Counted from the first letter of the stretch, positions 10,477 to 60,598 are shown. The stretch is DNA of 64,000 bases from Natronospira proteinivora (GCF_024170465.1 NZ_JALJYF010000002.1:124001-188000); one strand, 5' to 3'. Program-made: numbers and translations. Notes: generated from the letters alone by a model not told the origin.

Positions 10477-11274
10477 ATGGCCAAGCGCTCCCAATCCATC
10501 TTTGTCGACATGGTGTATCTGCCCTGGTGGGTCGGGGTCATTTTCGGCATTCTTTTTTTAATCGTTGGCTTGGTTTTTGTGCCGGCTTTGCTTGAAGGGC
10601 AAAAGTTCGTCGGACTATTCACCGTCCATGTGCAGTGGTTCGTCTACTTCCTCGCCTTCCTCAGTTTTCTTTCGGCCACCGTCAGCGTGGGCCGCAGTTG
10701 GTGGCAGGGTAAGCTCTTCTACAAAATGAAGGGCGGCCAGCCCGTGGAGAGCCTGAGTTGGCGTGACTTTGAGCAGATGCTGGCCGGGGCTTTCCGAGAA
10801 CAAGGCTACTTGGTGGCCGACAATCCCCCCGGCCCGGACGAGGGCATCGACCTCAGGCTCCGAAAAGGGCGGGAGAAAATCTACGTCCAGGCCAAACACT
10901 GGCATCACAAGCCGGTGGGTGTCAGCGTCATCCGCGAACATCACGGGGTTGTCACTGCCGCCGGCGTCGACGCCGGCATTGTAGTCTCCAGCAGCGGCTT
11001 CACCCCCGATGCCAAGCGTTTCGCCAAAAAGGCGGGCGTCCGCCTGATCGGCCCGGTGGAATTGCGCCGATGGTTCACCGGACAATCCCCCAAAAGCGAG
11101 CCCCAAAACACCGCAGGCATCGAACGCCGCTCCAAAGAAGCCGCCGCCCCGGATTGCCCCGCCTGCAAAACCCCCATGGTTGCCCGCACCGCCCGCCGTA
11201 GCCCCAATGCCGGACAGCAATTCTGGGGCTGCCCCAACTTCCCCAACTGCCGACAGACCCGCCCGTTCAACTAG
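10477..11274 (+). CDS. Membrane-anchored Mrr-like restriction endonuclease with topoisomerase-type zinc finger
   Basis: 265-aa protein. Two transmembrane helices (about residues 15-38 and 50-70) precede a Mrr-type PD-(D/E)XK nuclease domain at about 95-205: LSWRDFEQMLAGAF, catalytic GPDEGIDL (D125 likely) and the QAKHW variant of the E-x-K motif (Q138, K140). A C-terminal topoisomerase-type C4 zinc ribbon follows (CPACKTPM ... GCPNFPNC). Mrr-like proteins cleave modified or foreign DNA; membrane-tethered versions with this zinc ribbon are widespread but poorly studied. The gene stands alone at the island edge and lacks the 17-bp operator. Confidence 0.85.
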   Translation: MAKRSQSIFVDMVYLPWWVGVIFGILFLIVGLVFVPALLEGQKFVGLFTVHVQWFVYFLAFLSFLSATVSVGRSWWQGKLFYKMKGGQPVESLSWRDFEQMLAGAFREQGYLVADNPPGPDEGIDLRLRKGREKIYVQAKHWHHKPVGVSVIREHHGVVTAAGVDAGIVVSSSGFTPDAKRFAKKAGVRLIGPVELRRWFTGQSPKSEPQNTAGIERRSKEAAAPDCPACKTPMVARTARRSPNAGQQFWGCPNFPNCRQTRPFN

Positions 11275-11333
11275 GTCCCTACTAATGGACGACCGCACGA
11301 CTTGTATAGCGCTGGCCGATGCAGAGTAAGCCC

Positions 11334-13412
11334 CTACTCCACCGTGGCTAGAAACCCAATCCCGGTCGCCTGCGCACCCGGCTTGTGAGCCACTTCACGC
11401 TCAAGCACCGCCATCAGGGAGTCAGCCGTCAAGGCGCGCCCGAACAGGCCGGCCTGCCGTTGAGCCACGGCAAAATCGCCCGGCGTGAGCTGGCGCAGGC
11501 GAGCCAGACGCTCGCTGATGGAGCGCGATAGCGGGCCACGCCGCCCACCCAAGGTGCGACGGAACAGGCGTTCGGCCTGTTGGCGATGCAGGTAATCAAA
11601 GGACACCTTCACATCAAAGCGCCGCAAGGCGGCGGTGTCCAGTGCCTCCATGTAGTTGGTCGTGGCCACGAACCACCCTTCAAAGGCCTCCATCTGGGTA
11701 AGCAGCTCATTCACCTGACTGACTTCCCAGCCCGCCTGGGCCCCAGCCCGGCTGCGCAGAAAGCTGTCCACTTCATCCATCACCAGCACCGCCTTCTGCC
11801 GCCGCGCCTGCTCAAAGGCATTGGCCAGGTTCTTCTCATTCTCGCCCACATACTTGCCCAGCAGATCCGAGGCCCGCTTGACCAGCACCGGCCGGCCCAG
11901 GCGATAAGCCAGGTATTGGGCCAGGGCCGTCTTACCCGTCCCCGGCGGGCCGCAGAAGCAGAGTCGGCCACCCTGGCCGCCCCGCATCAGTCGCAGCAGC
12001 TCGGATACCCCCGGGCGGGTATTCAAGCACTGCATATCAAAATCCTTGGGCGGCTTGGCCGGCCGAAGCTTGTGCTTGGCCCTATCCCCCCGCTGCCCGG
12101 TCAAGACCTGCTCGGCCACCGCCCGGGCGCGCTGGGGATCATCCGCCGCCACGGTCCGGGCCACCCGCGCCGCCCGTTCGGCGATAGCCGGCGAAACATC
12201 CCGGCGCGCGGCCACGGATTTCAGCCAGCCACCATCAACGCCCATGCCCCGAAAATAGCGGCGCAGGATCCGCTCCCGGTGTTCCTGGGGCGGCGCCTTG
12301 ACCTCCATCACCAAATCAAAACGCCGCAGGTGGGCCGGGTCCAGCATGCGGATGCTGTTACTGATCCAGACCGCCGGCACCGGATTAGACTCCAGCAGGC
12401 GATTCACCCAGGCCTTGGAATGCTCTTCCTTGCGGCCCATGGCAAACATCGGCAGATCCCGCCCGAACACATCCTCGATCTCATCGAATAGGATCAGCCC
12501 CCGGCCACTGGAACGCAGCGCGGTCTGGGCCAACTCGAAACTGGCAAAGCGCTCGGAGGCCGACATGGGCTCCCCGGGGCGGGATTCATCCGCCACCTCA
12601 AAGGTCTCAAAACCCAGCACCTGGCCCAGGGCCCGGGCCAACTCCGTCTTGCCCACCCCCGGCGGGCCATGCAGGAGCACATTGCGGCCCTTGGCCGCAT
12701 GGGCCTTGGCCAGGTAATCGCGCAGCAAAGCCACCTGCTCCGACATGTGGCCAAAATCATCCAGGCCCAGCTCCGCCACCCGGCCCGGCGTCACCCGGTG
12801 CCGGAACAACTCCATGGCATCGCTCTGAGGCTGCCAGAGCCGTTCATCCAGCCCCGGCATGGTGGCCAGGCCCGGCGTGGCGCCCCGGCGGTTCGTCTGC
12901 ATCAAACCACTGCGATACAGCGGCCCGGCCGGGTCCATGGCCTGCTTGACCACTTGGCGGGACAGGCCCGTGCAGGCACTGATCATATGCCCGGCACTGC
13001 GGACGTTGCCGCAACGCAAGGCATCATCCACCACGTCCTCAAACCAGTCGTACATCTCATAAAACACACCCACCGCCAGCACCACTTCTTCGGCCTCGCA
13101 CAGGCCCAGGCACTCCGCCAGCAGATGCAGGTTACGCAGGGGTTCATCCGGGGAAGAAACGGGGTCGGCCAACAGCCGCTCATGGGCCTCAGCCAAGGGC
13201 TCACGGCACTCCGATTGCGACAGATCCAGGCCTTCCTCAATCCCGGTCATCCGGGCCGCCTGAAGCCCCAGCGACGGCCGGCCCATCATGCCCGAGCTGA
13301 ACGGCACCGCCGCCAGCATCAAGCGAACAGCCCAGACCGCCGCCATCCATTCCGATGCCGACAACCGCGGCGTTGTGGCCGATTGGATCGGTGCATACTC
13401 GACTTTCAGCAT
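11334..13412 (-). CDS. Tandem AAA+ ATPase (FtsH/Cdc48-like arrangement)
   Basis: 692-aa protein with two AAA domains behind a ~220-aa helical N-terminal region. Domain 1 has Walker A GPPGVGKT (249-256) and Walker B ILFDEIED (about 307-314). Domain 2 has Walker A GPPGTGKT (488-495), the pore-like KYVGENEKN and Walker B VLVMDEVDS. Both end with arginine-rich HLRRFD/ALRRFD segments. It carries no protease or nuclease domain itself; a stand-alone M41 peptidase is encoded upstream in the same direction, so the two may act as a split protein-unfolding protease. The ATG follows AGAGGAGG. A 17-bp inverted repeat lies 46 bases upstream. It resembles the ATPase at 36967-39105. Confidence 0.85.
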   Translation of the reverse strand: MLKVEYAPIQSATTPRLSASEWMAAVWAVRLMLAAVPFSSGMMGRPSLGLQAARMTGIEEGLDLSQSECREPLAEAHERLLADPVSSPDEPLRNLHLLAECLGLCEAEEVVLAVGVFYEMYDWFEDVVDDALRCGNVRSAGHMISACTGLSRQVVKQAMDPAGPLYRSGLMQTNRRGATPGLATMPGLDERLWQPQSDAMELFRHRVTPGRVAELGLDDFGHMSEQVALLRDYLAKAHAAKGRNVLLHGPPGVGKTELARALGQVLGFETFEVADESRPGEPMSASERFASFELAQTALRSSGRGLILFDEIEDVFGRDLPMFAMGRKEEHSKAWVNRLLESNPVPAVWISNSIRMLDPAHLRRFDLVMEVKAPPQEHRERILRRYFRGMGVDGGWLKSVAARRDVSPAIAERAARVARTVAADDPQRARAVAEQVLTGQRGDRAKHKLRPAKPPKDFDMQCLNTRPGVSELLRLMRGGQGGRLCFCGPPGTGKTALAQYLAYRLGRPVLVKRASDLLGKYVGENEKNLANAFEQARRQKAVLVMDEVDSFLRSRAGAQAGWEVSQVNELLTQMEAFEGWFVATTNYMEALDTAALRRFDVKVSFDYLHRQQAERLFRRTLGGRRGPLSRSISERLARLRQLTPGDFAVAQRQAGLFGRALTADSLMAVLEREVAHKPGAQATGIGFLATVE

Positions 13413-13457
13413 CCGTCGCCCTCCTCTGCTGTTGGTACAACAGCTTACGGCAAGGCA

Positions 13458-13474
13458 ACGACAGATCTTGTCGT
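13458..13474. promoter_or_regulatory. 17-bp operator-like inverted repeat, copy 1
   Basis: ACGACA-GATCT-TGTCGT, a perfect palindrome including its spacer centre. It lies between the stop of the 102-aa gene and the start of the tandem-AAA gene, 46 bases before that start. It is one of seven copies of [G/A]CGACA-N5-TGTCG[C/T] in the window. I infer it is bound by the WYL regulator at 59600-60598. Confidence 0.8.
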
Positions 13475-13495
13475 GGCAAATGCCTGTCGGCTTTT

Positions 13496-13804
13496 TTAGC
13501 CTTCATCACCGGCACTGCCGTCATACAGTACGCGCCCATCAGACTTGCGTATGCCAATCAGACGCGATGAGCGAAGGGCAATCACCCCATCATTCCAGGG
13601 CGCCATGATCCACCAGCAATCGCCCGACTCGGTCATATAAGGCGATGCTCTGGGCGGCAACTCATCGTAAATCTTCAATTCGGAGACAGGCACCTTGGCC
13701 CGCCAGGCGGCCATGTTAAGTGCCGCCTCGCGGCTAAAGCCCGGCACGGCAGGCTCAGCGTCTGCCTGGTCATCGAAACGGTCCTCTTCGTCAGGCGGCT
13801 TCAA
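13496..13804 (-). CDS. Hypothetical 102-aa protein in split-protease operon
   Basis: Small soluble protein with a very acidic N terminus (PDEEDRFDDQADAEPA) and a C-terminal region rich in Trp, Ile and Gly (CWWIMAPWNDGVIALRSSRLIGI) that may fold as a small beta domain. No family recognised. It starts at TTG, overlapping the end of the M41-like gene by 14 bases, which indicates translational coupling. An internal ATG at 13714 is possible but would remove the acidic segment. It may be an adaptor or substrate of the neighbouring peptidase and AAA pair. Confidence 0.6.
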   Translation of the reverse strand: MKPPDEEDRFDDQADAEPAVPGFSREAALNMAAWRAKVPVSELKIYDELPPRASPYMTESGDCWWIMAPWNDGVIALRSSRLIGIRKSDGRVLYDGSAGDEG

Positions 13805-14429
13805 GGCGTTTCACCGTTGTGTTGCCCCAGCCACCCCTCGGCAACAAGTCGAGCCCCCTCTGCCCATGCGCCGCATCGTGATTGTTGAGGATTCGCTGTA
13901 TATCGCTTTGATCCAAATAGCATTCAGAACTCAATATCTCAGCGTAGGTCGTCACCAAAGACCAAACCCGGGGCTGAGCAATCCACCGCCGCATCCGAGC
14001 CCGCTCCTGGTTCATCAGCGCATGAGGCCGTGGCCGGGTTGCCCCCTGATGCACGCCGAAATCTCCCCATAGCATCAAAAGGCGTTTTGCCATCGCCTTG
14101 CAGTGGTCCAGATCCGATCGCGCCCCCAGGGCGCGAAGCGGCTTGCCCAACACCTTGGCCTCGGCCAGCGGCCCGGCCAGAAACACCCGCATCTCCCGCT
14201 GAACCCGCGCCACACTCTCCGCCCAGGCCAAGCGCCCATTGCCCACCCCAAGGGCCGGATCAAAACGCGTTGGCCGTCGGCGATGCATCAACCGCGTCAC
14301 CCCATTACCCGGCCGCACCGGCGAGGCCTCGACCTCATACACGGTATAGCCTTCAAAAAGGGCCGCCACCAGATGGCCGGCCTCATGCCAGGCAGTCACA
14401 TCCAGATGAATCCGGTCACAGTCGCGCAT
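13791..14429 (-). CDS. Stand-alone M41 (FtsH-type) zinc peptidase domain
   Basis: 212-aa protein that matches the peptidase half of FtsH without its ATPase. It has the zinc-binding helix AWHEAGHLVAAL (HEAGH at residues 15-19). About 70 residues later comes FLAGPLAEAKVLG, matching the LGGRAAE region of FtsH, then GARSDLDHCKAMAKRLL, placing the expected third zinc ligand Asp at about 106. All three ligands are present, so it is probably catalytic. The start is ATG at 14429 after GGAGCGGTGATT. It lies between a small membrane protein gene and the 102-aa gene, upstream of the tandem-AAA gene. The peptidase activity is inferred, not known. Confidence 0.8.
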   Translation of the reverse strand: MRDCDRIHLDVTAWHEAGHLVAALFEGYTVYEVEASPVRPGNGVTRLMHRRRPTRFDPALGVGNGRLAWAESVARVQREMRVFLAGPLAEAKVLGKPLRALGARSDLDHCKAMAKRLLMLWGDFGVHQGATRPRPHALMNQERARMRRWIAQPRVWSLVTTYAEILSSECYLDQSDIQRILNNHDAAHGQRGLDLLPRGGWGNTTVKRLEAA

Positions 14430-14488
14430 CAATCACCGCTCCAACGTCCTTTCAGAAGGCAACATCCAGGCAATCAAAAGATCCAGAC

Positions 14489-14710
14489 CTACTCCTCCTG
14501 ATCGCGCTGAGCCTCATGCATCGCCTGGGAAGCGAACATCACCACCAGGCACAGCACCGTAAAGAACACCAGCCAGCCAGTATGACCGACCTCCTTATCG
14601 CCGACAAAAATCAACAGGAGACAAGCAACCAGTCCTGCCCAGAACCCTAACGTGGTGCGGAAAAATAGCCCCACATACACCGCCAATCCCAATGCCAGAT
14701 TCTCCGCCAT
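14489..14710 (-). CDS. Small integral membrane protein (73 aa)
   Basis: 73-aa protein, almost entirely hydrophobic. A long apolar region at residues about 5-37 (one or two helices) and a second helix at about 46-62 are joined by GDKEVGHTG, with a charged C-terminal tail QRDQEE. No family is recognised. The ATG at 14710 has GGGAGG six bases upstream; a longer frame to 14788 exists but would run across the operator. The 17-bp site lies 60 bases upstream, so this is the first gene of the membrane/M41/102-aa/AAA operon. It could supply the membrane anchor that FtsH carries at its own N terminus. Confidence 0.65.
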   Translation of the reverse strand: MAENLALGLAVYVGLFFRTTLGFWAGLVACLLLIFVGDKEVGHTGWLVFFTVLCLVVMFASQAMHEAQRDQEE

Positions 14711-14769
14711 CTCCAACCTCCCCGGACCGTACCCGTTACAACGGCTTGAAACGAGCTTGGGAGCAAGGA

Positions 14770-14786
14770 GCGACAAGGGCTGTCGC
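14770..14786. promoter_or_regulatory. 17-bp operator-like inverted repeat, copy 2
   Basis: GCGACA-AGGGC-TGTCGC with perfect arms. It lies 60 bases upstream of the 73-aa membrane protein gene and just beyond the stop of the preceding gene at 14794. This places the whole split-protease operon under the putative WYL regulator. Confidence 0.82.
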
Positions 14787-14793
14787 AAACGGG

Positions 14794-15648
14794 TCAGACT
14801 GAGCGGGCCCGCCAGGCATGGTTGGCCAAGATGGCCCGAAGCGGTCGACTCGAGTCAGCCGGCCGGTGGAGGTCTTCGGACGACAGGCAATGGACGGGAC
14901 TGCCGCGGTAGGCTCGCGCAATCTCGTCCCTGAATGCACGCGCTACGGCCTCATTGGCGGGATCATGGATGACCACCCCATCCGGCACAGGGGCACCGGA
15001 GCCGGCCAGATACACCTCGCCCAGCCACAGAAAGACAAACGAATCCATATCAGGGGCAGACGGGAAATCAGGAAAAGCGTCTTCCAGCGATCTCCTTGGC
15101 GCACAGGCATGCTGCCTGGCAAAGCGGGAGAGAATGCACTTCCACAGGGACTCGATATTCTCCGGGCTCGCTTCCATTGCCAGAGGCCGACTACCACCTA
15201 GCTCCGGCCATGACTGGCCAAGCATGCCCTCCGGCTCCCCATTCTCTTCCAGCAATACAGCAACTTCCTGTATGGCATGAAGTACACACAGCGTTGCCTG
15301 CTTGCGCCCCAGCTGCCTCAGCCGGCCTTCACGACCACAGACCTGGCAGGTATGCGCCGCTTCACGACAGGCTTGCTCAACCCACCGATTCAATCCCTCC
15401 GGGCCTTCGTAATAGGCACGCAAGGTCCCAAACTTCGACTTGATCTGTGCCCACTCAAAATTCGCGATGTCACGTCGTTCAATCTCGCCCTCAACCTCAC
15501 GGATCAGGCGGTGCAGTGCATCACTCCAGCCATCGACCCATCCCACCGAACCATTGGGGAACTGGCTTTTGTAGGCATTGACCACTTCCGCCTCGCTCGC
15601 CTGAACCGAGGACGTTCTCAATGCCGTTTCAATCGTCATGGTGTTCAT
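14794..15648 (-). CDS. Hypothetical protein with CxxC zinc-finger-like motif
   Basis: About 284 aa. The N-terminal half is helical (VGWVDGWSDALHRLIREVEGEIERR). A CQVCGREGRLRQLG segment followed by a further Cys (TLCVLHAI) resembles a small zinc-binding site. The rest gives no recognisable domain. The frame is open to TTG at 15705, which overlaps the DUF2779 gene; I prefer ATG at 15648, preceded by GGAACAGCCGGT. It is the third gene of the leftward operon headed by the PD-(D/E)XK gene, so it may work with those nucleases. Confidence 0.65.
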   Translation of the reverse strand: MNTMTIETALRTSSVQASEAEVVNAYKSQFPNGSVGWVDGWSDALHRLIREVEGEIERRDIANFEWAQIKSKFGTLRAYYEGPEGLNRWVEQACREAAHTCQVCGREGRLRQLGRKQATLCVLHAIQEVAVLLEENGEPEGMLGQSWPELGGSRPLAMEASPENIESLWKCILSRFARQHACAPRRSLEDAFPDFPSAPDMDSFVFLWLGEVYLAGSGAPVPDGVVIHDPANEAVARAFRDEIARAYRGSPVHCLSSEDLHRPADSSRPLRAILANHAWRARSV

Positions 15649-15694: not shown

Positions 15695-17191
15695 TCAGCG
15701 CCCAACCACCCTCAACAACGCCTCCCGGATTCGAACCATGGCCAAGGAATCCTGCCGGCAATACACCCTGAGCGCGTTCTCCAGGCGCTCTCTCTCTGCT
15801 GCATCCGCACAATCGAGCATCTGTAGCCAGCTCCGGGCCGCCGCCTGACCATCCGCCACTTCCAGATCGCCGTAATCCATCCCGGGGGCAAGCACCGGCA
15901 GTACGGCCTTGATCGAGTAAGAACCCCGAAACCCGGGATGGCAGTAATGATCCCGAACCACCGGTAAAAGGTCACAAAGCCTGTCCCGCAAGGCCAGCAG
16001 CTCCCCCCGCAGCGCGGGCACGGCATCAGCCAGCAAGCCCAGGACACGCGATTCATACGAGGAATAGACAATGATCGACCCCTGCTCCCCAAGGCACTCC
16101 AGCAAGGCCCGGGCCAGGGCCTCGCGGGGATCATCATCGCTGGTGGCCAGAAACTCGGAATGCTCCAGCTCCGCATCGGGCCTGGCCTGACTGTGACAGG
16201 AAAACTGAAACGGGACGGTCCCGTAAGGGCTCGTCCCCGGCCATCGAGGAAGTGCCGGCATGGCCGCCTCGAAATCCAGGAAGTACAACGGCCATTCCAC
16301 CCGTTCAAGAGCCCGCCCCAACGCCGGAGAAACCCAAGCCTCACCAGAGGCAACGCAGCGCCTCACCCGCTCCTGAACGTTACTCAAAGGAAAGCCATCC
16401 GGAATCTCGTCAATCGACTCCGCCCCAATCGCCCTCAACTCATCCCGCTTTTTCCCAAGCCGAGGCAGCCAGTCAATGGGTTGCTCGGAAAATTCCACAT
16501 CACGACTGCAGTGGCCGTAATAGGGGCAGTCATAGGGGGTAAAACAATGATCCCCAATCTCGACTTCCGGCTCCTCGCTGGCCACCACTTCCTGGAAAGC
16601 AAACACCTGCGCTTCAATCTCCCCTAAGCGATGCTCACTGTCCGCTGTCAGATCTTCAAAATGAAACAGTTGATCCAGGTCGTATTCCCCACCGGGATAC
16701 ACATAATCCCGATTCAGCACCAACACCCCCGCGCGCCGCACATCCAGCCCGGCCCCACGCAGTATCCAGTACTGAAGTGCCACATCCGTATCGAAAGGTT
16801 CCTTCACCCGAGTTGAGGACTTCACCTCCACCAGATCCCAGCCACCCTCCGGCGCCCGCGCTAGAATATCCACCCGCGTCAGCACCCCGCGATGCTCGAT
16901 CGCCGCCTCATAGATCGCTGGCACCGACAGATCCGCCATCAACGCCTGAGTACGCTCAATCGCCCGCTCAACCTCCCAATACGGCCCATCAACCAGCACA
17001 CCGCCAGACCAACGCTTCTGCGCCAACTCACCCACCGCATGCCCCGTCGCGAAAACCGCCTCCAAGCCCTCATCCGGCGGCGCCGCAAGATGCCGGGCAT
17101 GGATGTCATACCAGAGGCGCAGGGGGCACTGGGTTCCCGAGATGAATCGGGACTTTGAGATCCTAGAGTTTTTTGCCTTCCTAGCACTCAT
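15695..17191 (-). CDS. DUF2779 protein: Cas4/RecB-like Fe-S nuclease plus exonuclease-like domain
   Basis: 498 aa. The N-terminal half looks like a Cas4/AddB-type PD-(D/E)XK nuclease: VDIL (D108) and WDLVEVKSS (E122, K124), with four cysteines placed like an iron-sulphur site (C22 in GTQCPLRLWY; C216, C222 and C228 in HCFTPYDCPYYGHC). The C-terminal half (LYFLDFEAAMP..., from about residue 300) is the DUF2779 domain with a DEDD exonuclease-like start. The ATG at 17191 directly follows the stop of the upstream gene (TAAATG) with GGATGGAGAA before it. Function is unknown; DNA end processing is a reasonable inference. Confidence 0.82.
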   Translation of the reverse strand: MSARKAKNSRISKSRFISGTQCPLRLWYDIHARHLAAPPDEGLEAVFATGHAVGELAQKRWSGGVLVDGPYWEVERAIERTQALMADLSVPAIYEAAIEHRGVLTRVDILARAPEGGWDLVEVKSSTRVKEPFDTDVALQYWILRGAGLDVRRAGVLVLNRDYVYPGGEYDLDQLFHFEDLTADSEHRLGEIEAQVFAFQEVVASEEPEVEIGDHCFTPYDCPYYGHCSRDVEFSEQPIDWLPRLGKKRDELRAIGAESIDEIPDGFPLSNVQERVRRCVASGEAWVSPALGRALERVEWPLYFLDFEAAMPALPRWPGTSPYGTVPFQFSCHSQARPDAELEHSEFLATSDDDPREALARALLECLGEQGSIIVYSSYESRVLGLLADAVPALRGELLALRDRLCDLLPVVRDHYCHPGFRGSYSIKAVLPVLAPGMDYGDLEVADGQAAARSWLQMLDCADAAERERLENALRVYCRQDSLAMVRIREALLRVVGR

Positions 17192-21939: not shown

Positions 21940-22315
21940 TCGCTAGATCGACGAATTCCGAGATCCCACTGTCCTTAGTTGCATTAAGCAAATACCCTAC
22001 ACCCCGCTGGATATGTCCTCGCAACTGTTCGTTCACTGAATCCACGGTTAGAGGCAACCCATCATTCTGACACCGCTGCTTAAGCAAACCTAGGTAAACA
22101 TCCGCGTATTCGCCGCCAAAAGTTCGCCAGGTCATCTCAACCCCAAGTTCCGTCCCAATAACGTCCTTCCTAATCGCAGTCGGCTCATTCAGAGACATAC
22201 AAAATGCCCAGCGGCAAAGGATGTTCCAATTCTCGATCTTTGTCCGACGCTTTAGCGTCATCAGCTGATTCCGACAGCGCTGGTCCAGGCGAACTGTTTC
22301 GATCGTCGTATTCAT
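21932..22315 (-). CDS. dndE: DNA sulfur modification protein DndE
   Basis: 127-aa protein, the usual size for DndE. It opens with IETVRLDQRCRNQLMTLKRRTKIENWNILCRWAFCMSL, typical of the family, and ends helically. DndE is the small partner of the Dnd modification complex and binds DNA; it is needed for sulfur insertion into the backbone. Its start overlaps the dndD stop by four bases (ATGA), and it is last of the dndB-C-D-E operon. A hairpin covers its stop codon. Confidence 0.92.
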   Translation of the reverse strand: MNTTIETVRLDQRCRNQLMTLKRRTKIENWNILCRWAFCMSLNEPTAIRKDVIGTELGVEMTWRTFGGEYADVYLGLLKQRCQNDGLPLTVDSVNEQLRGHIQRGVGYLLNATKDSGISEFVDLAKT

Positions 22316-24306
22316 GCCGCGGTCTCCTCGAAATATCCTTCGACGACATTTGTACCGCCAGTTTCATCGTCGTACGAAAGCTCATAACAAGCGGCTAGAT
22401 GAGGCTTGAGCTTCTTCAAATAGCGCCCATCGATCTCTTCATCCGTAGATAGAAGGATCACTTGGTGACTGGCATTAGGGAAATAATTCTCTACCAGGTT
22501 CGTCCGATGACTGCTATCCAACCGACCCAACGGAGTATCAATCACTATAGGCAGTGAACGTCCAGAGGCTTTTGCAAGCCCCCACAAAATAGATGTCGCT
22601 AATAGCTGGCGTTCCCCTGCTGACAGATGCCGGGGCTGGACAACCTCCCCATGAATGCCTCTGAGATTAAGTGTCAAACTGTCGGGATCGATCTCGACGC
22701 CCCGAATGAGGCCAGTTTTCCGTAGCAAGCATTGGTATGACTCGAGGATCAGAGATTCCAAGCGAGCAACATGCTTCTCAAGAACTCTCTTTTTGAAGCT
22801 TGTCATGACCTCTCTTATTTGAACGGCCCTATCCACTATTCGGCCATCCAATTCGTCTCGTTGGCTATTTAGCTCAATATTTTCATATGTCTTCGCCAAC
22901 TGTTCATCTAGAGTATCCAGTCCCTGTCTACAGGACTCCCAGGCATTCTTCGACTCTTGATACTGAGCCTCTGCATACTCAAGTTTCACCTTCGCGTCCG
23001 CTCGGGCCTCTATAATGTCATGCAAGGCGCCCTCATCCGGGATTCGAGCGATTTCACGCTCAATTTTAGTCAAAGCCTCTGATAGCTCATCCAGGTCTTG
23101 CTTTACCTGCTCTACCTTTCCTATCGACTTGTCCAACCTTTCCCCTTGGAGGAGCCCATTCAACTGATCTTTAGCAGGTTCGTCCAATGCCAAACCACTA
23201 GCCTTATTCCCAGCTGTTTCGTGCAGGCCCTCTCGCCTAGCCGCCAGACTCGACTCTAGGGTGTTTATAACCTTATGGTCATGAATTTTCGACTTAAGGT
23301 CCTCCAGAAGCGCGGCATCACTTGCGGACAAAAGCTGAACGGCTACGGACGCACTTCGCGCTTCAGAATCCGACTCTGCCTTTCCTTGCAGCGCTACAAG
23401 CTGATCTTTTACCAACGCCAGGGGTAGTACGCCGCTCGCCAGTTCACGAAGGTCTCCCTCGTGGGACCTTAGCCTTAATTCAAGCTCCGTTTTTTGCTTC
23501 TCCAGATCTTGGCTACGCTCAAAGAGCGAGCCGCCTCGAGCCTCGAAATCTGCCTCTGCCTTCGATAAACGCTGCTTTGCCGCCTGCAAATCGGCGTGCT
23601 TTGCTATGCTATCAGACTGCAAGAACTCCAATCGTTGCATCGCCGCCGCGCGTTGCTCTTCGAGCCTCCGGATCTCGTCATCTGACCCTGGGGATGCATT
23701 CTGTCGTCGTTTTTTCCGTTCCACTGCCGTCAGATCGGCTTGCAGCTGATCGACCAACTCAAGCCCTAGAAGTGAGCTTATCGCTGTTCTCAGGATACTT
23801 GTCGTACGGCTAGGCTCGGCCAATGCCTCGATCTGCTCCCCATCAAAGAAGAACAGGTTGCAAAGCCTCTGAGGGAGAAATCGCTCAACCTCTTCCTCCC
23901 AGTTTTCGCTCAAAGCCGGCGAATAACCGCCATCAACATAAACCTCAACTGACTCACGAAAACCCTTACCCTTCACCCGCCAAGTACGTACAAGCGTGTA
24001 TTCATGACGCTCAGAGCCTTCAGACTCTTCAAATACGAGCGTGATCGCTGCACCTTCCTCTGGTGAAACTGCACGATTCGTAAGCTCAAGGAGATAATCT
24101 TCGTAGGCCCGACTTCCTCGTCGGGCTGTCTGTGCCAATTTCCCATACAATGCAAGCTGAATAGCCTCGAGAAATGTCGTTTTACCACCACCGTTCAAGC
24201 CACCAAATAGCAAAACCGGCTTATCCACGCTAGTTGATGAAAGGTCTATGACCTGGCGCCCCTGATAAACACCCACATTGTGAAGTGTTATTTCTTGAAA
24301 TCTCAT
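22312..24306 (-). CDS. dndD: DNA sulfur modification ATPase DndD
   Basis: 664-aa Rad50/SMC-like ATPase. It has Walker A FGGLNGGGKTT (about 34-44), the NLFFFDGEQIEALAE segment typical of DndD, a long coiled coil at about 200-480, the ABC signature LSAGERQLLATSILW and Walker B PIVIDTPLGRLD. DndD works with DndC and DndE and is thought to open or nick DNA for phosphorothioate insertion. It overlaps dndC and dndE by four bases each. The nearby ATPase at 33359-35401 shares its FFFDGE motif and general plan. Confidence 0.95.
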   Translation of the reverse strand: MRFQEITLHNVGVYQGRQVIDLSSTSVDKPVLLFGGLNGGGKTTFLEAIQLALYGKLAQTARRGSRAYEDYLLELTNRAVSPEEGAAITLVFEESEGSERHEYTLVRTWRVKGKGFRESVEVYVDGGYSPALSENWEEEVERFLPQRLCNLFFFDGEQIEALAEPSRTTSILRTAISSLLGLELVDQLQADLTAVERKKRRQNASPGSDDEIRRLEEQRAAAMQRLEFLQSDSIAKHADLQAAKQRLSKAEADFEARGGSLFERSQDLEKQKTELELRLRSHEGDLRELASGVLPLALVKDQLVALQGKAESDSEARSASVAVQLLSASDAALLEDLKSKIHDHKVINTLESSLAARREGLHETAGNKASGLALDEPAKDQLNGLLQGERLDKSIGKVEQVKQDLDELSEALTKIEREIARIPDEGALHDIIEARADAKVKLEYAEAQYQESKNAWESCRQGLDTLDEQLAKTYENIELNSQRDELDGRIVDRAVQIREVMTSFKKRVLEKHVARLESLILESYQCLLRKTGLIRGVEIDPDSLTLNLRGIHGEVVQPRHLSAGERQLLATSILWGLAKASGRSLPIVIDTPLGRLDSSHRTNLVENYFPNASHQVILLSTDEEIDGRYLKKLKPHLAACYELSYDDETGGTNVVEGYFEETAA

Positions 24307-25883
24307 TCCGCCTCCCCCGCTACGTGAGCTGACTGTTCCGAATAAGCGCCGGCATGCTCCTTAATTTGCTTAGTCGTATCCTCACTGTTGATCCTATACT
24401 TACGGTGAATCTTCGCCTCACGTTCTTTAAACTCAAGCGCTTCCTGGCGTGTCTCAAACGCACCAGCCTTGAGAACCTTCTCCAAATCCTTAAAAAGGCC
24501 GCGTCGGCTAGCCATTCCCTGATAGCGACGCTCTACGGCCAAGAGATTCCTCGCTGTTTCATAACGCATGGGATTGTTCTCACACACCTCACGCAAGAGC
24601 TCAAGCACTTCACCTTCAAAAAGATCGACGATGGCTCTTTCAGTCCCCGGGTATGGCTCCCCCATTGCCTCTTCGTAGATCTTCGGAACCAAGTCCTCGA
24701 CTTCATGTTTCTCCGTCAACCAAATCCGGCGGATTTCCTCTAACTCCTCAAGGGAGATCAGGTCCAGCTCGGTCACATAGTCCGGCGCGAACTCGTCATC
24801 CCGGATCTCACGCTGAGCCTCCAAAACCCGTCTCAACCAATACATACGAGAGTCTTGGGTATAAGGCCCCGGAATCAGCTGTGCTTCGCCATCCTTATCC
24901 CGATAATATTGAAGATGCCCCCCCATCCTCCTGAAATCTCTCCTCTCTCGATCTTTCTCTCTCGCTTCATCGCCGCGGAAATCCAGCTCGTTACGAATCT
25001 CCAGGAGCGGCATCATCCATTCCTTCTCATGATCATTCTGGATCATCGCGCCCATGGATTTATCTTCATCGACCAAAGTACAGGTCCAACAACCAAACCG
25101 GCTGTTGCCGCAACTCGGCGTACTAGTATCCACCACTACCGGGCATTCATTGTCTTCACTCGCACCCCGGTACATAGACAGCAAGTCTTTGTTGTTGAAT
25201 GACCATGGATTCGGGACCTGAAGCAGAAACGTCCAAACATCGTCGTTACTCCAATCCTCAATTGGCGTATAGACAAGGGTGTTGACAAGATCCGGATGGC
25301 CCGCGAGCTGCTTTCTCACGGCACTTTTCTCTCTGCGCTTGAATGCCTGCGCCCTCGTAATACTTTCCTGCCGTCGGGCTCCAAGGAGCAAAATCACCTC
25401 ACCATGGCGGCTGGCTACGTTCTCGATGAATCGGTTAGAAGGTTTAATCTTCAGACGCTCAGTGCACCACCTGAACTTGGGACGCGGCGCTGGATAGCCA
25501 CGCCCAATCAGGTTTACCCAGAATGTATTCTCAACATCGGGCTTCAACAGGTGCGGCGTAATAGGCATGGATTGCTTCTCTGCCGCTTCTTCCATCGTTC
25601 GAAGCGAGTTATCCACCCATGCCGCAACGACAGGGTTCTCTACTAAGGTATCCGTGGTAATAACATGAACCGGCTTCTTTCTCTGCGCCTTTGGGAGCTC
25701 GGAAAGAGCGAGCCAAACAAGTTGCACTACCGCACTGGAATCTTTGCCACCGCTATACCCAATAACCCAAGGCGTACTATCGGAGAGATATAGCTCACGG
25801 ATGGCTTCTTTATGGTCGCCAATAGAGTTCGCAAAACCCCCGGCCGAAAAGATGCTAGTTCCCGCTGCTGCTCGCTCTTTCAT
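24303..25883 (-). CDS. dndC: DNA sulfur modification protein DndC (PP-loop ATP pyrophosphatase)
   Basis: 526 aa. It has the PP-loop VIGYSGGKDSSAVVQL (SGGKDS at 44-49) of the PAPS reductase-like family, and a cysteine cluster SCGNSRFGCWTCTLVDEDKSMG that binds an iron-sulphur centre in DndC. DndC activates the DNA backbone or carries sulfur for the DndCDE complex. Length agrees with family members. It overlaps dndB by 29 bases and dndD by four, so the genes are tightly coupled. Confidence 0.95.
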   Translation of the reverse strand: MKERAAAGTSIFSAGGFANSIGDHKEAIRELYLSDSTPWVIGYSGGKDSSAVVQLVWLALSELPKAQRKKPVHVITTDTLVENPVVAAWVDNSLRTMEEAAEKQSMPITPHLLKPDVENTFWVNLIGRGYPAPRPKFRWCTERLKIKPSNRFIENVASRHGEVILLLGARRQESITRAQAFKRREKSAVRKQLAGHPDLVNTLVYTPIEDWSNDDVWTFLLQVPNPWSFNNKDLLSMYRGASEDNECPVVVDTSTPSCGNSRFGCWTCTLVDEDKSMGAMIQNDHEKEWMMPLLEIRNELDFRGDEAREKDRERRDFRRMGGHLQYYRDKDGEAQLIPGPYTQDSRMYWLRRVLEAQREIRDDEFAPDYVTELDLISLEELEEIRRIWLTEKHEVEDLVPKIYEEAMGEPYPGTERAIVDLFEGEVLELLREVCENNPMRYETARNLLAVERRYQGMASRRGLFKDLEKVLKAGAFETRQEALEFKEREAKIHRKYRINSEDTTKQIKEHAGAYSEQSAHVAGEAE

Positions 25884-26982
25884 CGCTGGCTCCTTGGAAT
25901 GCCCGTTCCAGTCGCTCTTCCTCCGGTGTCAGTTCCAGATTCAGATAGTGTTTAATTAGATTGCTAGTCAATATTAGATTTTGCTGAGCCTTTGAGACAC
26001 GACCACCGATCATGGCCCGGCCCTCCCACACTTTGGAGTTCGAGCGTGACCAATCAATATCGTCGAGCCCCTTTAATTTTGCTTTCCAATTCTTGGGATA
26101 ACGGCGCATAAGCGCATTCCCGACACGACCAAGCGAATGGATCGCGATGCCATGCGAATGGATAAAGTCTTTTCGCACTTCGCCTGAAGACATCTGTCGC
26201 TTTTTCACAAACTTCCATTCAGGCATATGAGCCGCGACTGCCTCCCAGAACTCAATCGCGCGCTCAGCAGCCTCTTCCTGGTCATTCAGCTTAATATTCT
26301 TCAAGAGCTCGTCAGTTGCATGATAGAGAGCACTCAGCGTAAAAAGCTTCCGGGATCTTGGAGAAAGGTTGCTTCTCTCCATTTCCACGAGATCTTTCAA
26401 GAACTTGGATTTCAATACGGTTAAACGGACAAGCTTCGCCATGTCATCGCGATGATCGTAGAGCACGCCAAGTGATTTACTCGGACGGATACCATGTCGA
26501 TTAAGGTCGGCAAACATCTGTTGGCAACGCTGTAGCCCTGGATCGAGAAAAAAAACTACTGCGATACTCTCGTCGCCGAGGTCCGGCTGTTGCCTGAGCG
26601 CTTCTTCGATAGCGGCTCTACGATGCTGTCCATCGTTGATAATAAATTTTGAATCCATGGGCACACGGAGAAGGCCGACAAGGCTCTCATGCCCGTCCTC
26701 GCCCAGCGACTCGAACTGGACATCTCCGTCAATTGAGGCCGTTAGGGCGGAAAATACGTAGTTGTCGCGATTCCGCAGCAGATAGTCCGCCATGTCCGGC
26801 ACACGGCCCCGATTTAGGGTCCGCTGCGCCCGCAACTCCGGGGACAACTCCGCCTCGTCTTCATCGAACAGGAATATTTTGGGGATCAGGCGAAGGGGGC
26901 ACATTGAGGTAAAATATTCCCGATTCGCCTGGACACCCCGTATCGCTGGAAACGTATATCCGAACCGCATATCGGTGGCCAC
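25855..26982 (-). CDS. dndB: DNA sulfur modification regulator DndB (DGQHR domain)
   Basis: About 375 aa. It contains FIINDGQHRRAAIEEAL, the DGQHR motif that defines DndB, plus YFTSMCPLRLIPKIFLFDE near the N terminus. Members are known as transcriptional repressors of dnd genes and influence modification frequency. The frame is open to TTG at 27030, but that codon is upstream of the predicted transcription start; GTG at 26982 has AAGGAG six bases before it and is chosen. It is the first gene of the leftward dndBCDE operon and is divergent from dndA. Confidence 0.93.
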   Translation of the reverse strand: MATDMRFGYTFPAIRGVQANREYFTSMCPLRLIPKIFLFDEDEAELSPELRAQRTLNRGRVPDMADYLLRNRDNYVFSALTASIDGDVQFESLGEDGHESLVGLLRVPMDSKFIINDGQHRRAAIEEALRQQPDLGDESIAVVFFLDPGLQRCQQMFADLNRHGIRPSKSLGVLYDHRDDMAKLVRLTVLKSKFLKDLVEMERSNLSPRSRKLFTLSALYHATDELLKNIKLNDQEEAAERAIEFWEAVAAHMPEWKFVKKRQMSSGEVRKDFIHSHGIAIHSLGRVGNALMRRYPKNWKAKLKGLDDIDWSRSNSKVWEGRAMIGGRVSKAQQNLILTSNLIKHYLNLELTPEEERLERAFQGASDERASSSGN

Positions 26983-27017
26983 GGCCCACTCCTTGAATTC
27001 CACGAAATCTTCGGTAA

Positions 27018-27046
27018 ACTGTAAATACAATACATACGTTTGTCAA
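27018..27046 (-). promoter_or_regulatory. Sigma70 promoter of dndBCDE
   Basis: On the minus strand, TTGACA (27041-27046), a 17-base spacer and TACAGT (27018-27023) form a good promoter pointing at dndB, with a leader of roughly 30 bases to its GTG. An inverted repeat TACGT-N14-ACGTA at 27035-27058 surrounds the -35 box and is a candidate operator, for DndB itself by analogy with characterised systems. I see no equally good promoter for dndA. Confidence 0.65.
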
Positions 27047-27082
27047 TTAACTGACGTACGTTTGGATCATCGGAGGCTCTAG

Positions 27083-28207
27083 GTGCCTGACAATAGGCCA
27101 ATTTATCTGGATTGCGCAGCCACTACCCCCCTCGACCCCAGAGTCCGAGAGGTGATGCTCGAATATTTCGACATTGAGTATGGCAACGCGGGAAGCCGTA
27201 CACATATGTACGGCCAAGAGGCGGCGAAGGCGGTAAGACGTGCTAGAGAGCAGATCGGCGCTGTAGTCAACGCTTCACCCATGGAGGTCATCTTCACGTC
27301 GGGTGCGACCGAAAGCAACAATATCGTGCTCCTTGGTTGCTCCCCCTATGCAAGAAGCAAGGACCGTCGCCACATCGTAACAACCGCGATAGAGCACAAA
27401 GCAGTGCTCGAACCCATGGCAGAAATGGAGCGTCAAGGTTTCGAGATCGACTACATATATCCGGGCGAGTCCGGACGGATAGACACGAAAGATATTGTAC
27501 AGTCAATCAGGTCGGACACTGCGCTCGTCTCCGTCATGCACATCAATAATGAGACTGGCGTAATTCAGCCAATTGATGAAATCGCCGACGAATTACCTGA
27601 AGACGGTCCTATCTTTCATGTCGACGCCGCACAGGGATTCACGAAGGATCTTCGACGCCTAAGGCATCCGCGTATAGACGCTATATCAGCAAGTGCCCAT
27701 AAGATCTGCGGACCAAAAGGAGTGGGAGCCCTCATACTCAGAGCACGTCGAAAAGCATCCCGAAAACTGACTCCGCTTTTCCATGGGGGACGACAGGAAC
27801 GCGGCCTAAGGGCAGGCACGTTACCAGTCCCATTGATAGCTGCATTCGGATACGCCGCTGAACTCGCAACAACAAATCACGACCAATACCGATCAATTGC
27901 TAATTGCCGAAAAAACGAATTCCGCCAGCAACTAAAACAACATCACGCAATAATCCACGGCACAGAACCTACCAGCCCATATATCATTAACTTTTCGATC
28001 CCTAACTTAGATTCTGAAGCTTTAATATTAGCTGTAAAACATTCTGCCGCATTAGCAACGGGAAGTGCGTGTACGTCAACAGAATGGAAACCCAGTCATG
28101 TTATCTCTGCGATGTACAAAGATGGCTCGTTTCAGGACACAGCATGTCGTGCATCCTGGTGTCACATGACCCCACCGATTCCTTCCGCTTTTTTTTCACC
28201 CATTTAG
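27083..28207 (+). CDS. dndA: Cysteine desulfurase DndA
   Basis: 374-aa IscS/NifS-family enzyme that takes sulfur from cysteine for phosphorothioation. It shows IYLDCAATTPLDPRV, the PLP lysine in SASAHKICGPKG (K207) and the catalytic cysteine in GSACTST (C330). The GTG start follows CGGAGG. It is transcribed divergently from dndBCDE with about 100 bases between. The last ~15 residues after SWCHMTP are atypical and follow a run of T residues, so a small C-terminal frameshift is possible, outside the active site. Confidence 0.93.
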   Translation: MPDNRPIYLDCAATTPLDPRVREVMLEYFDIEYGNAGSRTHMYGQEAAKAVRRAREQIGAVVNASPMEVIFTSGATESNNIVLLGCSPYARSKDRRHIVTTAIEHKAVLEPMAEMERQGFEIDYIYPGESGRIDTKDIVQSIRSDTALVSVMHINNETGVIQPIDEIADELPEDGPIFHVDAAQGFTKDLRRLRHPRIDAISASAHKICGPKGVGALILRARRKASRKLTPLFHGGRQERGLRAGTLPVPLIAAFGYAAELATTNHDQYRSIANCRKNEFRQQLKQHHAIIHGTEPTSPYIINFSIPNLDSEALILAVKHSAALATGSACTSTEWKPSHVISAMYKDGSFQDTACRASWCHMTPPIPSAFFSPI

Positions 28208-28439: not shown

Positions 28440-30368
28440 TTAATCTGACTCGCCGACAGCTCCCAACTCGTCCGGCTCCAACGCTTCATCGTCTGCGCTC
28501 TCTATACAATCTACAAATTCGATCGCAATGAACTCTTCCCCGATACCCCGGAATTCCTCAGGCAAAAGCACGCTACAATTATCGGCACAGCATGGAAAAC
28601 TCCACCTGTCGATCACGAATTTCAACATCTCATATTCTCGTTTCAGCACACAATCATCATCCCACGATACTCCATCAGTAAAACTTGGGATTCTTTTCTC
28701 GGAGTTTGTCGCATTCGTTGACGTAAATGAATAAGCCCCGCTCTCGTCGCTGATCTTTCTTTCAATGGATTTCCTTGCAAGGAAATGGTTACCTGCCGTC
28801 AACGACAAATTACCCAGACGATGCTTATACTTGTCCGCCTTAGCCTCTTCAGGCCAATGCGCTTCCCACCATCCGGCATCCCGATGCTGCTGCGGAAGAA
28901 TGTGTTCAATCGTGTTTTTCTTTTCGGCTGGCTTTACGCGCCACTCCATTGGGCTAACACCCTCTGGCGAAACAGAGAGCTCATATTCATATAGAAAATA
29001 GTAACAGTAAGCCCATCCAGATACCGTTGGGTCAAACGGATACTTTGGTTCTCCACTACACAACTGATGAATCACACTTTTGAGCGGCGCGTCTTCTACT
29101 GTTAGCGCGCACAACTCTCTCAGAACAAATTCGATGTCTTTATCATTTCTTAGAACCTCATGAGCGAGACCGATTATCTTAGTTGCATTTCTATCTATCC
29201 GACGCCCCATCACAGCATGTACGCGGAAAGTGTATTTTTCGCAAGCTTCCGCCAACCTTTCAAAGTCTAAACTGGAGAATTTCATATGCCCCGTAACGAG
29301 AAGAGCTCGAGTGATTGTGCTTAGTTCTAGGTTATCTAATGTTCTAAGCCATACCCCTGCCCTAAACGTTGATTCGTTAACACACAATTTACTCCTCTTC
29401 TTCGAGGTAATAAAACCGAAAGACTTTGCGTAGCTTGACCAGATGTTCACAAATCCAAGAAAATTGCTTTCTTTGCTCGCCTCGCTATCCTCCAACAGGC
29501 CCCGATAGCGCTTAACGAATTCCGAATGAACATCCGATTGGGAGACCTTCACTTGGTGGTAAACATTATAGATCTCATTCACAAAGGACTCTTCATGGCT
29601 TCGCCCACCGACACCATATCTATCAAGCTCTTCCAACGATTTGTACCACTGACTCTCTGCGTCTAGATTCGCCTCTCTTCTATTAGATACAAGAATACTA
29701 AAATTTTTGATTTTATCGAACTGACTTAGCGGCAACCCTCGGGAATTAATTGCATCAAATGTTAGATATCTATCGATATTCTCCGCGCGTAAATCTACCA
29801 GAATGAAACGCGCTTGATTTAATATCTTATTTTTCCACATCAAGCACTCTGAATGGTCTTTGTCACTGAAGAAATTCTCCGACCACACTTTCACATCCAA
29901 CATGTTATTCATTGGTGCTGTTCTTGATTCAGGCATTGGGCTACTGCGAGCGATGTCGACACAGTGATTCAAACACATGTTGAGGGCATCGTTTTCGTTC
30001 TCTATGCGCAAAGATAACGCACCACCCATGTTATATGTGAGAACCCTTTTGAATTCTTCCAAATCCGCATCAGAAGCGTCTAATTCCTTTAGGCGGCGAA
30101 ATATTGCATTCAACAAGAAGAAACACGCCGTAATTCTCTGTTGTCCATCCTCAAGAATTACTTTTTTGGTAACATTGTAATCTTTCTCCTGGATATCCCC
30201 ATCGTCTACAGTGGTAATTATTATGGGACCCATATAGTGATACCTATTACCCACCAGCTCTAAATCGCCGAGAAATTCTTTTACATGTCTTGTTTCCCAG
30301 CTAAACCCCCTCTGATTATGTGGAATAACAAACAATCTCTGCCGTATAACCTGAATCAAACCTTCCAT
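28440..30368 (-). CDS. DUF262/DUF1524 nuclease (GmrSD/SspE-like)
   Basis: 642 aa. The N-terminal DUF262 domain shows IPHNQRGFSW (15-24) and LEDGQQRITA (DGQQR at 74-78), which in this family drives NTP hydrolysis. The C-terminal DUF1524 HNH-like domain shows NTIEHILPQQH and HRLGNLSLTAGNHFLARKSIERK. Such proteins restrict modified DNA (GmrSD) or, as SspE, sense phosphorothioate to restrict phage. Its place beside dnd genes makes a phosphorothioate-linked role likely, but I cannot tell whether it depends on modification. It lies convergent to dndA. A perfect 11-bp inverted repeat stands 30 bases before its start. Confidence 0.85.
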   Translation of the reverse strand: MEGLIQVIRQRLFVIPHNQRGFSWETRHVKEFLGDLELVGNRYHYMGPIIITTVDDGDIQEKDYNVTKKVILEDGQQRITACFFLLNAIFRRLKELDASDADLEEFKRVLTYNMGGALSLRIENENDALNMCLNHCVDIARSSPMPESRTAPMNNMLDVKVWSENFFSDKDHSECLMWKNKILNQARFILVDLRAENIDRYLTFDAINSRGLPLSQFDKIKNFSILVSNRREANLDAESQWYKSLEELDRYGVGGRSHEESFVNEIYNVYHQVKVSQSDVHSEFVKRYRGLLEDSEASKESNFLGFVNIWSSYAKSFGFITSKKRSKLCVNESTFRAGVWLRTLDNLELSTITRALLVTGHMKFSSLDFERLAEACEKYTFRVHAVMGRRIDRNATKIIGLAHEVLRNDKDIEFVLRELCALTVEDAPLKSVIHQLCSGEPKYPFDPTVSGWAYCYYFLYEYELSVSPEGVSPMEWRVKPAEKKNTIEHILPQQHRDAGWWEAHWPEEAKADKYKHRLGNLSLTAGNHFLARKSIERKISDESGAYSFTSTNATNSEKRIPSFTDGVSWDDDCVLKREYEMLKFVIDRWSFPCCADNCSVLLPEEFRGIGEEFIAIEFVDCIESADDEALEPDELGAVGESD

Positions 30369-43933: not shown

Positions 43934-44014
43934 TTTCTTGGCGGATACTCATGGGATACCCGTTTGAGATAAGGTAAGCATCGATTGATTCCCGTTGGCA
44001 AAGGAGCCGCCCCG

Positions 44015-55268: not shown

Positions 55269-55309
55269 ACCCGAGCGGCGGATTATCGAATCAACCAGGA
55301 GACACAGCC

Positions 55310-58625: not shown

Positions 58626-59450
58626 TTACCTCCCTGGCATGAAATCTTGGCGGGCCGACATGCCCTCCGGGATCCGGGTGGGCCCTGGATATTGGGCATG
58701 GAATGAGCGTATCACGCTGCGCATGGTGTCTGGCAGTCGGGCCCAGCTGGCTTGGGCAATAGACTCGGGCACACCGTCAAAATAGGCCTCCGCAATGGCG
58801 CCCACGATGGCCGCAATGGTGTCGCTGTCACCGCCGATGGAGACCGCCTTGCGAATGGCGTCTTCGAAGTCTTCTGACTGAAGGAAACAGGCAATGGCCT
58901 GAGGCACCGATCCCTGGCAGGACACATCAAAAGTGTAATGGGCCCGAAGCTCGGTCAGGTCATGATCCAGCTGGTATTCGCAAACATCCTCAATCGCATT
59001 TTGAATACGGGCTTGGGATTCACCCTGCCGTGCCAAGAAGATGGCCAGGGCTACTGCCTGGGCGCCCTTGATCCCTTCGGGATGATTATGGGTCACCGCT
59101 GCCGACTGCTCGGCAAGCGCCAGCGCCTCCATCTCATCGGCAGCGGCCCAGCCGGCAGGACTGACCCGCATGGCGGAGCCGTTACCCCAGCTGTTATAGG
59201 GGGCGGATCCGCCGGATCGCGCCCAATTGTGAAAGGAACCGCCGTAGCTGCAATGAGGAAATCGCATGTACCAACCCTGAAGGCTGCGATTGAAAGCACG
59301 ACCTTCAAGAATGGCCTCGGCCACCGCAACGGTGAGAACGGTATCGTCGGTGAAATCCGCAGCCGCCGGAAACAGTTCGAATTCCGTGTGGCGAATATTG
59401 TTGAATTCATGGGGCGAGCCGATGATGTCGCCTGCAATTGCGCCCAGCAT
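58626..59450 (-). CDS. ADP-ribosylglycohydrolase
   Basis: 274-aa ARH/DraG-family enzyme that removes ADP-ribose from a modified target. It begins MLGAIAGDIIGSPHEF, has the metal/ADP-ribose motif FTDDTVLTVAVAEA (33-36 TDDT) and the C-terminal IGGDSDTIAAIVGAIAEA with the two aspartates. All expected metal ligands are seen. The ATG follows GAGAGGAG. It is divergent from the WYL regulator across the 17-bp operator. No matching ADP-ribosyltransferase is obvious in the window, so the substrate is unknown; a protein or DNA modified by host or phage is possible. Confidence 0.92.
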   Translation of the reverse strand: MLGAIAGDIIGSPHEFNNIRHTEFELFPAAADFTDDTVLTVAVAEAILEGRAFNRSLQGWYMRFPHCSYGGSFHNWARSGGSAPYNSWGNGSAMRVSPAGWAAADEMEALALAEQSAAVTHNHPEGIKGAQAVALAIFLARQGESQARIQNAIEDVCEYQLDHDLTELRAHYTFDVSCQGSVPQAIACFLQSEDFEDAIRKAVSIGGDSDTIAAIVGAIAEAYFDGVPESIAQASWARLPDTMRSVIRSFHAQYPGPTRIPEGMSARQDFMPGR

Positions 59451-59493
59451 AAGAACTCCTCTCTTGTTACCCTCTCCTATTATCCGGTTATTT

Positions 59494-59599: not shown

Positions 59600-60598
59600 A
59601 TGGCTGAAACCACCGTCCGTTATGTCCGCATGCTGGAACTCGTTCCCGGCTGGCCCCGCAAGTCCTCGGCGCAAGAGATCCTGGACCGACTGGAATCTGA
59701 AGGCCTAACCACCAGCTTGAGGACGGTCCAGCGGGACCTGGAAAAATTATCCGGCTATTTCCCGCTAACCCATGATGAGGGTACGCCCAGGGGCTGGCAG
59801 TGGGCACAGGGCGCGCAGGGGATTGAGCTGCCCGCCATGAGTCCGGCCACGGCCCTGTCCTTTTTGATGCTCAATGAATTCTCGCGGCCGCTGCTCCCCA
59901 ATAATATCCGGGCCTTTCTGGACCAGCACCTGGACCGGGCGCGGGGCATTCTTACAGAGATCAATGACCAGAACCCCGGTTTAAGCGAATGGTCCGATCT
60001 GGTGACCGTGGCACCCAGGAGCCAACCCCTGATTCCACCCACCGGTGATGAGGATACGGTGCGAACCGCCTACGACGCCCTGCTCTACCGCAAGCGTTTC
60101 GAAGCCAGCTATCACTCCGCCTCACGGGACAAGCGCCAGCAGTTCACCATCAATCCTCTGGGGGTGGTGCTACGGGACAATATCCTTTATCTCATCTGCA
60201 CCCTGTTTGAGTACGAGGATATCCGCATCCTCGCCATGCATCGCCTGGAGAAGGCGTCCCTCACCGAGGAAGACGCCTGGTGGCCGGCGGGTTTCGATCT
60301 GAAGGATTACGTGGCCTCGGGGGCACCGGACATTCTCGCCGGCCCGGAGATCCGGCTGGTGGCGGATTTCAATCGCGAAGCCGCCCGGCACCTGGAAGAA
60401 ACGCCACTCAGCAAAGACCAGACGTTGGAAGCAATAGATCAAGAGGAGACCCGGGTCACGGCCACCGTCCAGAACACCAAGCAACTCCGCTGGTGGTTAA
60501 TGGGCTTTGGCCCCGCGGTGGAGGTGATCGAACCCAAGGACTTGCGCGAGGAAATGGCGGCCAATGCCCGTGCCTTGCTGGAACGGTATCAAGACTGA
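59600..60598 (+). CDS. HTH-WYL domain transcriptional regulator
   Basis: 332 aa. An N-terminal winged helix-turn-helix (VRYVRMLELVPGW, SAQEILDRLESEGLTTSLRTVQRDLEKLS) is followed by a WYL domain (about 145-240: ASYHSASRDKRQQFTINPLGVVLRDNILYLICTLFEYEDIRILAMHRLEKA). WYL proteins respond to nucleic-acid or other ligands and control defence and repair genes. The ATG follows AAAGGAG. It is divergent from the ADP-ribosylglycohydrolase gene and probably binds the site at 59494-59510 and its six relatives; whether as repressor or activator is not known. Confidence 0.92.
   Translation: MAETTVRYVRMLELVPGWPRKSSAQEILDRLESEGLTTSLRTVQRDLEKLSGYFPLTHDEGTPRGWQWAQGAQGIELPAMSPATALSFLMLNEFSRPLLPNNIRAFLDQHLDRARGILTEINDQNPGLSEWSDLVTVAPRSQPLIPPTGDEDTVRTAYDALLYRKRFEASYHSASRDKRQQFTINPLGVVLRDNILYLICTLFEYEDIRILAMHRLEKASLTEEDAWWPAGFDLKDYVASGAPDILAGPEIRLVADFNREAARHLEETPLSKDQTLEAIDQEETRVTATVQNTKQLRWWLMGFGPAVEVIEPKDLREEMAANARALLERYQD

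Follow-up and report, generated by a model that had tools for sequence, protein, structure and literature searches.

The 212-aa protein encoded at 13791..14429 on the minus strand of a 64,000-nt stretch of Natronospira proteinivora DNA (the window, on whose whole length all coordinates are counted) is, by prediction, a free-standing protein of M41 fold, unusual as such, and its gene belongs to a defence island that is likely WYL-controlled. Its gene lies beside that of a tandem AAA ATPase, and the two had been read, with two small proteins, as a dispersed FtsH; as a conserved machine, a dispersed FtsH is not supported. It is fairly probable that the peptidase unit and the AAA gene, though side by side and in the same defence-island regulon, are each under their own control and were inherited independently.

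Most of what is known of M41 peptidases concerns their place as the proteolytic half of machines of the FtsH type. FtsH joins membrane, AAA and peptidase parts, and its AAA and peptidase rings are fused. Single-domain M41 relatives under selection in a defence regulon would, if real, mean that the fold can work without a motor. A genuine split AAA protease would be of greater consequence, though it is unlikely.

Gene Layout and Transcription Units

Four open reading frames run in order on the minus strand between positions 11334 and 14710 with a single overlap, in line with the first-pass annotation. The first (14489..14710) encodes a small 73-aa protein whose two hydrophobic stretches in a hydropathy profile bear out its earlier description as a membrane protein. 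It is followed by the gene for the 212-aa predicted M41-fold zinc metallopeptidase, assigned by motifs, alignment and predicted fold, and by a gene for a 102-aa protein (13496..13804), which has a TTG start inside the 3' end of the 212-aa gene. The last gene (11334..13412) encodes the 692-aa tandem AAA ATPase, recognized by Pfam AAA and motifs.

Two exact palindromes accompany these genes. The first, GCGACAAGGGCTGTCGC (14770..14786, core 14771-14785), has a core that starts about 61 nt upstream of the start codon of the 73-aa gene, and it probably serves the 73-aa/peptidase/102-aa unit as operator. The second, ACGACAGATCTTGTCGT (13458..13474, core 13459-13473), falls in the gap that separates the 102-aa gene from the AAA gene; its core is about 47 nt upstream of the start codon of the latter, and it probably acts as operator for the AAA gene only. 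The 17-bp site had been placed at both ends of one operon; it stands before the 73-aa gene and before the AAA gene, and near 11300 there is no copy, even when one mismatch is allowed. Because the 13459 palindrome separates the 102-aa and AAA genes, the run splits into two likely transcription units, and the AAA gene most likely has its own promoter. A sigma-70 promoter scan of 11200-15000 gave no match. The idea that the locus is regulated holds.

The Free-Standing M41-Fold Peptidase

The 212-aa protein carries HEAGH at residues 15-19, and its candidate zinc and catalytic residues are His-15, Glu-16, His-19, and Asp-106. Asp-106, within SDLDHCKAMAKRLL, aligns with the conserved third-ligand Asp of FtsH, so both motifs on which the M41 assignment was first based are present. 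Pfam M41 scores the protein at 22.0 bits (E 1.6e-4) and the curated cut-off of 29.9 is not reached; by sequence score the protein is M41-like and stands outside the curated Pfam family.

The structure comparison with FtsH M41 that had been proposed points to an M41 fold. An AlphaFold2 model from an alignment including FtsH domains has a pLDDT of 84.5 and a pTM of 0.83. Since FtsH sequences in that alignment could make the fold assignment circular, a second model was built from five free-standing proteins only, with a pLDDT of 79.3 and a pTM of 0.78. Both models match the protease domains of FtsH, YME1, and AFG3L2 with Z-scores of about 13-17 over 131-178 residues; the top Z to FtsH protease domains is 17.2 for the first model and 16.6 for the FtsH-free one. 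Next after the FtsH types comes 5iqj at Z of about 10, and all others fall below 5. The 5iqj entry, a small Vibrio cholerae protein, resembles the window protein as a single-domain chain (125 residues, with the match spanning 111), but it is shorter and no sequence relation was detected. By prediction, the 212-aa protein is thus a free-standing M41-fold peptidase with intact zinc ligands, and it is presumably catalytically active.

The closest relative, from a Natronospiraceae metagenome-assembled genome, is 48% identical and retains HEAGH and the Asp; its two loci, L029 and L038, are the same 14,085-bp contig, judged by length and site positions. More distant free-standing relatives lie at L039, L054, L040, and L043. 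HExxH is retained in all five relatives. The third-ligand Asp is aligned in the four closest family members, the window protein counted among them, and unaligned in two planctomycete relatives. In the four closest members, which are 34-48% identical to the window protein, both HExxH and the Asp are retained, a sign that catalysis is under selection. That conservation weighs against a catalytically dead or passenger gene without current function, a very improbable reading to which the rare and patchy family and the score below the Pfam cut-off would lend themselves.

Such relatives are rare, with one other in 369 class genomes and no further copy in 398 phylum genomes. Single-sequence scans of genome contigs and viral contigs returned no relatives, and a two-sequence alignment search returned 14 loci, 10 of them FtsH-type or longer chains. 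Neither a second viral-contig scan nor a phage search gave a match, and a plasmid search gave FtsH-like or weak matches only. A search of open-access papers found nothing on free-standing M41 peptidases.

The 73-aa and 102-aa Proteins

The best outside matches of the 73-aa protein (E 0.0012 and 0.0045) both lie within longer frames, and no convincing homologue was found. It has no match to FtsH regions in Pfam or NCBIfam. The 102-aa protein matches no family in Pfam, NCBIfam, or PADLOC. Its one distant relative (36%) adjoins an IS3-type transposase, and the 3.2 kb covered at that locus includes neither a peptidase gene nor an AAA gene. The adaptor role once given to the 102-aa protein finds no backing in these results. 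No curated name was found for the 73-aa, 102-aa, and 303-aa proteins of the window.

The Tandem AAA ATPase

The 692-aa protein matches Pfam AAA (E 6.4e-44) in two stretches that form two AAA modules, both with a full set of motifs. The second module, D2, contains a Walker A motif (GPPGTGKT), a pore loop (KYVGE), a Walker B motif (VLVMDE), and an RRFD motif, and the protein's motifs are conserved over 29 homologues; its earlier reading as a tandem AAA ATPase stands. The YVG pore loop in D2 makes substrate threading plausible. Plasmids, and 21 of 369 class-level genomes with its own among them, encode proteins that align with it over most of its length at roughly 30-42% identity. The C-terminal IGF residues are conserved in homologues whose loci have no peptidase, and the C-terminus was accordingly rejected as a peptidase-docking motif.

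IetA is the ATPase of the anti-phage defence pair IetAS, and it is the best curated family of the window ATPase (133.6 bits in PADLOC; 116.9 bits in NCBIfam, where the cut-off is 510). Membership of IetAS was rejected on that shortfall and on the missing subtilisin: no subtilisin-like gene is found among the window proteins scanned, and the AAA gene is flanked on one side by the M41-like gene unit and on the other by a gene of Mrr type. The window shares with IetAS the placement of ATPase and protease on separate chains, as does an AAA/subtilisin pair of mycoplasmas. It differs in its 692-aa, two-module ATPase, compared with 262-395 positions in IetA models, and in a zinc peptidase that is not conserved as a partner.

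The likeness to FtsH lies in the 212-aa protein, with its predicted M41 fold, HEAGH, and third-ligand Asp. Unlike FtsH, the window has its AAA and M41 parts on separate ORFs and probably in separate transcription units, its AAA protein has two modules in place of one and is nearer to IetA than to FtsH, and its 73-aa protein lacks a Pfam or NCBIfam match to FtsH. An ordinary FtsH is encoded elsewhere in the genome.

Co-Occurrence across Genomes

Co-occurrence was examined by tblastn in 30 loci with AAA relatives from other records (375 kb). None of them contains a relative of the peptidase or of the 73-aa, 102-aa, 303-aa, and 289-aa proteins, and a free-standing-peptidase profile search of the AAA loci collected at that stage found no copy. 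A DUF2779 gene accompanies the AAA gene in seven of the 30, and WYL genes occur in 11 loci of the AAA neighbourhood survey. In eight of the 30, a palindrome precedes the extrapolated AAA start by 37-127 bp, which fits the AAA gene as an independent unit.

The five other peptidase-bearing genomes, one of them only 83% complete, contain no full-length AAA relative; matches in four of the five cover only the second AAA module, mostly within FtsH-sized frames. On L029, the peptidase gene is flanked by a WYL gene and an ADP-ribosylglycohydrolase gene, with four palindromes and no AAA gene. Identity to the window proteins is 60% for WYL, 69% for the ADP-ribosylglycohydrolase, and 48% for the peptidase.

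The AAA family is independent of the peptidase, and the peptidase relatives are independent of the AAA protein. The first-pass annotation had held that its dispersed FtsH would be undone if the genes did not occur together elsewhere; they are not together in other genomes, and one FtsH dispersed over four partners is not borne out by the 30 AAA loci or the five peptidase genomes. With zero co-occurrence in both directions, a split FtsH was rejected as a conserved module. The peptidase family is rare, with five relatives, so the comparison from the peptidase side has low power against a recent local pairing.

A Probable WYL Regulon across a Defence Island

Seven exact CGACAN5TGTCG sites occur in the window (13459, 14771, 18069, 39432, 43918, 53315, and 59495). 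Counting sites with up to one mismatch, the window holds 10 palindromes, where shuffled sequences average 1.8; the whole 2.9-Mb genome holds 11 exact sites, and a reversed control gives none. All seven are intergenic, each with a gene start no more than 150 nt downstream of it (binomial p 2.6e-10). The genes behind them are, in order, the AAA gene, the 73-aa unit, a 289-aa gene, a 287-aa gene, a RecC-like gene, a 624-aa gene, and the ADP-ribosylglycohydrolase/WYL pair.

The WYL-WCX transcriptional regulator gene (59600..60598, plus strand; Pfam WYL and WCX) has the palindrome at 59495-59509 in its promoter region, common to the divergent ADP-ribosylglycohydrolase gene (58626..59450, minus strand; Pfam ADP_ribosyl_GH 7.2e-41). 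The same palindrome type thus stands in the regulator's own promoter region and at other units of the window. The WYL protein shares 30-40% identity with most of the WYL proteins encoded close to AAA relatives. WYL repressors of the BrxR type recognize inverted repeats whose halves are 5 bp apart, and they keep defence genes repressed (PMC9122589, PMC9122601). The window resembles BrxR/CapW systems in pairing a WYL-WCX protein with 5-bp-spacer palindromes in defence-gene promoter regions; unlike them, it has seven sites over 46 kb and several systems, with the half-site CGACA. A PDB sequence search with the window WYL protein returned PafC only and no BrxR, so its preference for the palindrome is inferred from position. 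Judged by position and pattern, the protein encoded at 59600 is the likely reader of the palindromes.

The genes under and around these sites make the window a probable defence island of anti-virus genes. An Mrr-type restriction gene (10477-11274) is convergent with the AAA gene, and a DUF2779 protein gene (15695..17191, minus strand; Pfam DUF2779 1.7e-35) represents a recurrent neighbour of the AAA family. DNA phosphorothioation genes (22312-28207) encode DndB, a DndC-like PAPS reductase-domain protein, an SMC-like (DndD-like) protein, and a class V aminotransferase (DndA-like), and a GmrSD-type restriction gene lies at 28440-30368. RecC, RecB, and RecD-like genes (43985-53296) are headed by the 43918 palindrome. 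Genes for a 624-aa protein without a known family, an AAA protein, and a DUF2201 putative metallopeptidase/VWA protein (53394-57657) are headed by the 53315 palindrome. The seven palindromes suggest that a single WYL regulon extends across 46 kb of this island, and they make its extent directly testable.

Proposed Roles and Alternatives

The reading as two members of one regulon would assign the 73-aa membrane protein, the M41-fold peptidase, and the 102-aa protein to one unit led by the 14771 palindrome, and the IetA-like, island-borne tandem AAA ATPase to another led by its own palindrome at 13459. The WYL regulator is probably a repressor that binds all seven palindromes and would free the scattered units on sensing an infection or DNA-damage signal; we infer this binding, repression, and induction, as well as any anti-phage role. 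The peptidase would cut without a covalent motor, making limited cleavages in a target that is unstructured, specific, or close to the membrane, and the 73-aa protein may hold it near the membrane. The AAA protein would thread or remodel a separate substrate of its own.

One alternative, itself unlikely, gives the peptidase a regulatory role: as in ImmA/ImmR-type pairs, it would cleave a DNA-binding repressor and thereby control a mobile element or the island. A ribbon-helix-helix-type gene lies upstream in two of the five relatives (L054:8814-9077 and L039:739-1308), and the L054 peptidase copy sits between integrase-like genes. However, the L054 ribbon-helix-helix match is weak, and no such gene precedes the peptidase in the window or in L029.

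The units are adjacent, on the same strand, and under the same operator type, as would be expected of partners, and this counts against the two-member reading. It favours a split AAA protease in which the AAA protein unfolds substrates and feeds the M41 peptidase in trans, with the 73-aa protein as membrane tether and the 102-aa protein as adaptor. The YVG-type pore loop and complete ATPase motifs of D2, the predicted FtsH protease fold of the peptidase, and IetA as the nearest family of the AAA protein are in keeping with that arrangement, and a toxin-antitoxin pair in mycoplasmas places an AAA protein and a subtilisin-like protease on separate chains (PMC8562856). It is nevertheless improbable: the peptidase and AAA genes do not co-occur in the other genomes examined, and the AAA gene has a separate palindrome that is conserved where the peptidase is absent. 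The conservation of the AAA C-terminal IGF without a peptidase argues against a docking tail made for it, and no docking element was found here.

A pairing confined to this lineage, in which an IetA-like AAA protein recently recruited the M41 peptidase, would be a zinc-protease counterpart of IetAS with separate chains, WYL-induced during phage infection; we consider it quite improbable.

Related Gene Arrangements

Ribbon-helix-helix and M41-like genes stand together at L054:8814-9918 and L039:739-2126 as possible repressor-protease pairs. ADP-ribosylglycohydrolase and WYL genes lie close together in two genera (window 58626-60598; L029 4668-8477), each time with a palindrome; that ADP-ribose signalling is tied to the WYL switch is a guess. 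A second tandem AAA gene of the window (36967-39105) encodes a protein 38% identical to the first. A 223-aa gene comes after it, and about 330 nt upstream lies a palindrome common to the divergent 287-aa gene.
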